From Thermosphaera aggregans (GTDB lineage Archaea; Thermoproteota; Thermoprotei_A; Sulfolobales; Desulfurococcaceae), in the NCBI RefSeq assembly GCF_014962245.1, contig NZ_CP063144.1, forward strand, positions 1,106,582 through 1,170,581: 64,000 bases of DNA, written 5' to 3'. The notes below the pieces were generated by a model. It searched no databases. It was not told the DNA's origin and saw only the letters and a program-made list of their open reading frames with translations. Of this stretch, positions 42,310 through 43,941 are shown piece after piece. Each line of letters starts with the position of its first letter. Position 1 is the stretch's first letter. The position numbers and the translations under genes were made by a program.

Positions 42310-42383
42310 GGGCCCGTAGCTCAGCCTGGTAGAGCGGCGGGCTCTTAACCCGTAGGTCCCGGGTTCAAATCCCGGCGGGCCCG
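42310..42383 (+). tRNA. tRNA-Lys (anticodon CTT)
   Basis: A complete cloverleaf of 74 nt. The acceptor GGGCCCG pairs with CGGGCCC and the discriminator is G. The D arm is GCTC/GAGC. The anticodon stem GCGGG/CCCGT closes the loop CT-CTT-AA. The T stem CCGGG/CCCGG closes TTCAAAT. CCA is not encoded and there is no intron. Anticodon CTT reads AAG (lysine). Confidence 0.96.
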
Positions 42384-42412: not shown

Positions 42413-43312
42413 TTGCTACGGAAACTATTCCCAGAGATGGAGAGCCTCGAAATATACGTTATACCTGGCACGCCATTCCTCTACTTTTCAAGGAGAAAGA
42501 CCTTGGTAATGGCTGACTTACACTTAGGCTTTGAGGAGGCGGCTGCGAGAGGGTTGGAGTATTCTTTGCGTGGAAAAAGCGGTTACTCAGGCATTTTCCT
42601 ACCGAGAATCCAGTTCAGGAAAATTCTCGAGATGTTGAACTATGTTCTAGAGCACATCAGCGTGGAAAGAGTAATCGTTAACGGGGATTTGAAACACGCT
42701 TTTGACAGGTTGCTTAGACAGGAGAAAATAGAGGTTAGGAGTCTACTCAAGCATTTTAAAGAGCGAGGTATAAGCGAGTTCCTGCTAGTAAGAGGGAATC
42801 ACGACAATTTTGTGAGAAACATAGTTAAAGGTGAAGGCGGAAACATAGCCAACGCCCTTAGCGTTCCTGAAAACAATGCTCAAGTCTTCATTACCCACGG
42901 ACATGAGTATTTTCCCTCGGAAGAATACAACATAGTGGTAATTGGTCACGAGCATCCCAGCTTGAAGTGTTTCGGAGGAAGAAGGTTTCCTGTCTTCCAG
43001 AAAATACCTCTAGACAAAGATAAGTGGTTGGTGATAATGCCTGCTACAGGACCATATCATCCAGGAACACAGGTTTCACCCAACCCTGACGACTACTTAT
43101 CACCCTATGTTAAAAAAGCAGGGCTCCTTTACAAGTCGAAAATCCTTTTGTGGATTGAAATAGAGAAGGGTGAGGAAATCGTTGAGCAAATGTCTACAGT
43201 GCTTGAATCCCCTCTCCTCAGAATAGACCGCCTGGTATTCGGGGGTAAGGAATACGCATTAATAGAGTTTGCAGATTTAGAAACAGCCTCTATACTATGC
43301 TCTTACGAGTAA
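42413..43312 (+). CDS. calcineurin-like metallophosphoesterase, COG1407 type
   Basis: A 299-residue phosphoesterase. ADLHLGFEEA (DxH), NGDLKHAF (GDxxH), RGNHDN (GNHD), THGHEY and IGHEHP are the five metal blocks of the archaeal ICC-like COG1407 group, of unknown substrate. The first codon TTG 42413 has a GGTGA site seven bases upstream; ATG 42437 is the alternative. It begins 30 bases after the tRNA gene. The 3' end is followed by a guide RNA on the opposite strand. Confidence 0.83.
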   Translation: MLRKLFPEMESLEIYVIPGTPFLYFSRRKTLVMADLHLGFEEAAARGLEYSLRGKSGYSGIFLPRIQFRKILEMLNYVLEHISVERVIVNGDLKHAFDRLLRQEKIEVRSLLKHFKERGISEFLLVRGNHDNFVRNIVKGEGGNIANALSVPENNAQVFITHGHEYFPSEEYNIVVIGHEHPSLKCFGGRRFPVFQKIPLDKDKWLVIMPATGPYHPGTQVSPNPDDYLSPYVKKAGLLYKSKILLWIEIEKGEEIVEQMSTVLESPLLRIDRLVFGGKEYALIEFADLETASILCSYE

Positions 43313-43325
43313 GGATTCCTTGTTA

Positions 43326-43379
43326 AACTCAGTTAATCGACCCATCATCACTGTTCAGATTATGTCGGCTTCAGCATTC
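43326..43379 (-). ncRNA. C/D-box 2'-O-methylation guide sRNA
   Basis: On the minus strand box C is ATGCTGA (43377-43371, one mismatch), then a 12-nt guide (43370-43359), then box D' CTGA (43358-43355). A 3-nt spacer follows, then box C' GTGATGA (43351-43345), a second 12-nt guide (43344-43333) and box D CTGA (43332-43329). Two 12-nt guides with a 3-nt D'-C' spacer is a classic archaeal layout. ATTTTAAGT at 43409-43401 predicts a start near 43379, two bases before box C. Guide 1 is complementary to AUGUCGGCU, the universal peptidyl-transferase segment of large rRNA, with the rule marking its U as target. Confidence 0.82.
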
Positions 43380-43518: not shown

Positions 43519-43941
43519 CTATGCTTCAAGGATTCGCCGCTCCTGGAGTTTCCTGTAAAGCTGGTTAACCATCCTACCATTCACGTATTTACCGTGAGGT
43601 CTAAGACCCCCTTCGAAATTTCTGGGAATATGGAGGAGCTCGTGTATCAATACTTTATCCTTCTCCTCCTCTGTAAGCTTGTCATATCTCTCCGAAATCA
43701 ACTCTATAATGTAGAAGGGTTTAATCCCCATCGCGAACGCGTAAATGCGTGGGAAACCGTGGATTCGGGCAAGAGCTCTGGACTTGCTTCCTACCGATCG
43801 GACGACCACTATTCTTTTCAAATCTATATAATTAAACTCGGGCTGTAAAGTTTTCACAATCTTTCTTATTCTTTCAAAAACATCCTCAGCATGGAAATAT
43901 TTTATCAATGCCTGCACCAGGGCTCCTTGTATGTTAATCAA
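43519..43941 (-). CDS. putative metallopeptidase with HExxH motif
   Basis: A 140-residue protein with HELLHIP near residue 100 and a following FEGGLRPHGK, which fits the small putative (phage-like) metallopeptidase family: HExxH plus a downstream His. The first 60 residues include SKSRALARIHGFPRIYAFAMG. The substrate is unknown; related proteins are often near DNA-repair or phage genes. The start ATG at 43941 lies in a region of modest AT content without a sharp promoter. Confidence 0.7.
   Translation of the reverse strand: MINIQGALVQALIKYFHAEDVFERIRKIVKTLQPEFNYIDLKRIVVVRSVGSKSRALARIHGFPRIYAFAMGIKPFYIIELISERYDKLTEEEKDKVLIHELLHIPRNFEGGLRPHGKYVNGRMVNQLYRKLQERRILEA

Follow-up and report, generated by a model that had tools for sequence, protein, structure and literature searches.

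A double-guide C/D box sRNA of Thermosphaera predicted to act at U2504 and U2479 of 23S rRNA, with a matched change of target base and guide in two related families

The genome of Thermosphaera sp. 3507, a single contig of 1,305,106 bases, contains an archaeal double-guide C/D box sRNA whose two guides are complementary to neighbouring sites in the peptidyl-transferase region of the organism's own 23S rRNA. Very likely this RNA serves to direct 2'-O-methylation at U2504 and U2479 (E. coli numbering), or else to assist folding there. In two sister families, the base at 2504 and the guide nucleotide that faces it have changed together. This joint change is the unusual part of the finding, the sRNA being otherwise of a known type. 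The locus lies in a stretch of 64 kb, called the window in the following, and its features are collected in Table 1.

Table 1. Features of the sRNA locus and its surroundings, in window positions; minus-strand features inside and just before the RNA are given 5' to 3'.
Feature	Position	Strand	Remarks
Core of the C/D box sRNA (boxes C through D)	43377-43329	-	box scan, Rfam match, ortholog model
Mature RNA, probable extent	about 43382-43325	-	
Box C, ATGCTGA	43377-43371	-	consensus RTGATGA; one mismatch, A to C
Guide 1 (D' guide), 12 nt, AGCCGACATAAT	43370-43359	-	position 5 = A43363
Box D', CTGA	43358-43355	-	box reading
D'-C' spacer, ACA, 3 nt	43354-43352	-	box reading
Box C', GTGATGA	43351-43345	-	perfect; box reading
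Guide 2 (D guide), 12 nt, TGGGTCGATTAA	43344-43333	-	position 5 = A43337
Box D, CTGA	43332-43329	-	box reading
Likely TATA element, TTTTAAG	43408-43402	-	31 nt before box C
TATA element of the earlier note, ATATTTTA	43390-43383	-	too close to the RNA
Convergent neighbour, putative metallophosphoesterase	42413-43312	+	named by motif reading alone; stop 16 nt from box D
Upstream gene, putative metallopeptidase-like protein	43519-43941	-	HELLHIPRN motif; neighbourhood kept within the genus

An earlier note, made from the letters of the window, had read four boxes on the minus strand, two guides of 12 nt and a spacer of 3 nt, with one mismatch in box C, and all of these were found in the positions that it gave. 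The box order and the length of the guides are those of archaeal C/D box sRNAs, for which guides of 10–12 nt are typical, the one departure being the mismatch in box C. The genes for the host proteins of such an RNA, that is, fibrillarin, Nop and a member of the L7Ae family, were all found in the genome. A strict scan of both strands, with one mismatch allowed in the C boxes, finds the C-D'-C'-D arrangement at a single place in the window. A single occurrence could also mean that box-like motifs have come together by chance between two genes, but this explanation is extremely improbable, since the same arrangement is absent from 100 dinucleotide shuffles of the window, the guides match targets, and orthologs occur across the class (see below), a conservation that contradicts it.

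Among the Rfam families, RF00095 (snoPyro_CD) matches best, aligning over the full length from box to box with 27.9 bits and an E value of 7e-4. Its guides are unrelated to those found here, and the score lies below the 45 bits of the gathering score that membership of that family requires. No Rfam family covers the sRNA above the gathering threshold. In published lists, such an sRNA would be identified by the sequence pair GUCGACAUAGG / GGGUCGAUAAC.

It is important to consider the imperfect box C further. The tandem sheared G.A pairs are perfect in the D'/C' kink-turn, while the C/D kink-turn has a C at one of the sheared-pair positions. A register shifted by +3 (CUGAAGC) might restore the sheared pairs of the C/D motif. 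As ATGCTGA disrupts one sheared pair, one can imagine that the locus is a decaying copy, belonging to a real family but giving an RNA that is no longer assembled in this strain. We regard this as very improbable. The identical box C is retained in six related genomes (G001, G002, G004, G008, G011 and G021), which have intact guides and D boxes, indicating that the odd box is tolerated, and both guides of the present copy still match the 23S rRNA.

We now turn our attention to the targets, which were read from the organism's own genome. The E. coli numbering was verified on the rrlB gene of MG1655, where 2503 is A, 2504 is T and 2479 is T, and the alignment is ungapped between the two sites. 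Positions 4-12 of guide 1 form nine consecutive Watson-Crick pairs with AUGUCGGCU (A2503-U2511 of the 23S rRNA), with position 5 facing U2504. The earlier note had taken the complement of guide 1 to contain a universal 23S segment, and had stated that its reading would be refuted if the complement had no match in the 23S rRNA of this organism. Such a match exists, although only 9 of the 12 guide nucleotides pair. The nucleotide that the note had singled out by the fifth-nucleotide rule, U2504, is indeed the one opposite position 5. For guide 2, whose target the note had left open, an alignment to the rRNA locates a site in the same domain: positions 4-11 form eight pairs with AUCGACCC (A2478-C2485, helix 89), and position 5 faces U2479. 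Both guides are in this way complementary to rRNA with a Watson-Crick pair five nucleotides before box D or D'. By the rule of five, U2504 (guide 1) and U2479 (guide 2) are the predicted 2'-O-methyl sites.

The two targets are 25 nt apart, well within the 100 nt used to define linked targets, and the guide 2 site is the upstream one. For random guides with the composition of these two, the probability of finding matches of nine and eight pairs no more than 40 nt from each other is about 2.7e-4. The eight pairs of guide 2 fall short of the 9-pair criterion described by Dennis et al. 2015 (PMC4644070), which is relaxed somewhat for double guides.

Other RNAs were also considered as targets. The 16S rRNA gave nothing convincing, with runs of 4–5 nt covering position 5. 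Of the 43 tRNA genes, 30 were covered together with their surroundings, and the matches of at least 8 seen there were rejected: the 12/12 matches in L029 are the sRNA locus itself on the other strand, and the remaining ones, judged by their coordinates, fall outside the tRNA.

The organism's own 23S gene (G000:C1) probably has an intron, as about 680 extra bases separate positions 2095 and 2144 of the model. In the 23S genes of G007, G014 and G019 (L074-L083), a 300-base query matches in several parts, which are separated by insertions of tens to hundreds of bases. Introns in rRNA close to the peptidyl-transferase region would give split matches of this kind.

In the mechanism that we propose, the locus would be transcribed and the boxes would fold into two kink-turns that are bound by L7Ae, leading to recruitment of Nop5 and fibrillarin. 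Guide 1, bound to A2503-U2511, would then direct 2'-O-methylation of U2504 (C2504 in two families), and guide 2, bound to A2478-C2485, would place the mark at U2479. The order of the targets and their distance of 25 nt would allow a single particle to bind the two at once, and it may also aid the folding of helix 89 and the peptidyl-transferase loop.

The conservation of the locus was followed at several levels. In a search of 60 relatives, the DNA matches outside the genus cover little beyond the RNA and the flanks are not matched; similarity that ends at the edges of the RNA supports an sRNA gene. A sequence-only ortholog model (R1), built from 19 sequences, scores the window's own locus with E 1.6e-15 and finds an ortholog in 117 of the 165 genomes of the class (E <= 0.01), with one copy in nearly all. 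An ortholog is also found in G163, which is likely the genome of the laboratory strain Sulfolobus acidocaldarius DSM 639. Elsewhere in the phylum few genomes match, mostly weakly, and such weak hits, with E values that are mostly about 1e-3, were not accepted as orthologs. In an alignment of 90 rows, the cores of guide 1, GCCGACAT, and guide 2, GGGTCGAT, are retained. Variation is seen in the D'-C' spacer and at those guide positions that adjoin D' and D. Position 3 of guide 1 is A in most orthologs, despite facing G2502, with which no pair is possible.

Next, each guide was compared with the 23S rRNA of its own genome, in the 42 genomes where both the sRNA and the 23S segment could be read. 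Position 5 forms a Watson-Crick pair in 42/42 cases for guide 1 and likewise in 42/42 for guide 2. In guide 1, positions 4, 6, 7, 9 and 11 are Watson-Crick paired in 41–42 genomes, position 8 in 37 and position 10 in 36. The corresponding counts for guide 2 are 42 for positions 4, 9 and 10, 41 for position 11, 40 for position 8 and 38 for position 6; at position 7 the pair is Watson-Crick in 34 genomes and G-U in the other 8. Pairing is rare at position 3 of either guide, and some genomes show it at positions 1 and 2. This profile indicates that the selected duplex consists of positions 4 to 11. A Saccharolobus-like genus (G152-G158) has a mismatch in guide 1 opposite C2507, which means that guide 1 can decay.

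The pairing at 2504 is preserved through a change of the target base. In the sister families f2 and f3, the 23S rRNA reads UCGACGUCGGCU, with C at 2504 in place of U. Position 5 of the guide is G (GACGT in the guide) in all 11 of the C2504 genomes with a readable sRNA, and A in all 31 of the U2504 genomes. The C form was seen in 15 of the 221 genomes scanned, all belonging to f2 or f3, a count from which introns or missing rRNA genes may hide others. On a tree of the 23S rRNA, the C2504 genomes form one group with a support of 0.97, so that we have to do with one joint change, which counts once and not eleven times. All the descendants that were seen have retained it. An Ignisphaera-type organism is among those with C2504. 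An A-type guide occurs in G108, a genome of f3, but the 23S segment was not found in its assembly. Probably the class-wide guide family methylates the ribose at 2504, a near-universal nucleotide of the peptidyl-transferase region, and a natural U2504C change in the ancestor of f2 and f3 was met by the matching change in the guide, the modification being selected to persist. The class-wide conservation, the target pairing and the joint change at 2504 all support the earlier note in its reading of the locus as a C/D guide RNA.

As only one pair of the duplexes, which have eight to nine pairs, precedes the target base, the guides may bind and yet methylate inefficiently. A real sRNA could then bind both sites and act mainly as a chaperone that helps helix 89 and the peptidyl-transferase loop to fold, with methylation weak or absent at one or both of them. 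Several observations would fit such a function: positions 1-3 rarely pair, so that the target nucleotide comes second in the duplex; there is a defect in box C; and the two sites are close and in an order that suits simultaneous binding. A role of this kind has also been proposed for double guides by Dennis et al. 2015 (PMC4644070). However, a pure chaperone need not preserve the pair at position 5 more strictly than those around it, and this pair is Watson-Crick in all 42 genomes for both guides and follows the base from U to C, although the conservation of positions 4, 9 and 11 is nearly as high. We therefore consider a chaperone of this kind unlikely, and prefer the guided methylation described above.

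As to the promoter, the earlier note had placed a TATA element two bases from the 5' end of the RNA. The usual archaeal spacing between TATA element and start is about 26 nt, and the ATATTTTA element is too close, as this spacing would put the start inside the RNA. It is also not kept in the sister species (G001), while TTTTAAG is found there at the same distance from box C. For the family to which the window belongs, 25 members show a maximum of AT content 29–36 nt before box C, reaching 1.00 at -31, which coincides with TTTTAAG. The placement in the note is thus not borne out, and TTTTAAG is the likely element, from which a 5' end near 43383-43380 would be expected.

Several related genera have the convergent neighbour at the corresponding location, while a scan of genome contigs with its protein gave no match. 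A tRNA gene lies just upstream of it (42310-42383, plus strand), and in several relatives a tRNA-Lys(CTT) is read by ARAGORN close to this gene's counterpart. In a Sulfolobaceae-like family (f11; L099, L102, L105, L116, L118, L124 and others), a hairpin ending in ACA abuts box C at a distance of 0 to few nt. It has a pocket and a kink-turn-like motif, and its folds have z values of -2.7 to -3.5. This upstream element looks like an H/ACA hairpin, as if H/ACA and C/D guides were arranged in tandem. A dicistronic tRNA-sRNA was also considered for this family and rejected, as the tRNA was not found there.

Comparison with known systems places the sRNA among the archaeal sRNAs described by Dennis et al. 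2015 (PMC4644070), with which it shares the box order, the guides of 10–12 nt and the rule of five, as well as the two targets within 100 nt in domain V of the 23S rRNA, at the peptidyl-transferase hotspot. U2504 is not named in the main text of that study, whose supplementary tables may hold a Sulfolobus acidocaldarius entry for the family. In its Table 3, the D' guide of sR50 from Thermoproteus tenax is listed for U2753 of the alignment. If an offset of 274 holds (C2880 = C2606), this nucleotide is E. coli 2479, that is, the site of guide 2 here. The other guide of sR50 is listed there for 2883 and 2783, and not for 2778, which would be 2504 by the same offset. Our search, largely of the openly accessible literature, found nothing on natural C2504, on the guide sequences or on methylation of 2504 in archaea.

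The same nucleotide is modified in bacteria by other means. In E. coli, U2504 of the 23S rRNA is a pseudouridine made by RluC. There, a protein enzyme changes the base, whereas RNA-guided methylation of the ribose is predicted here.

U2504 lines the A-site cleft of the ribosome, and its orientation has been linked to the species selectivity of antibiotics that bind in this cleft, such as the pleuromutilins (PMC5154188). The analysis also shows how comparison of genomes can by itself confirm a guide that was predicted on a first reading. That the guide is kept across the class and has tracked a change of its target base indicates that the guide interaction at 2504 itself is under selection.
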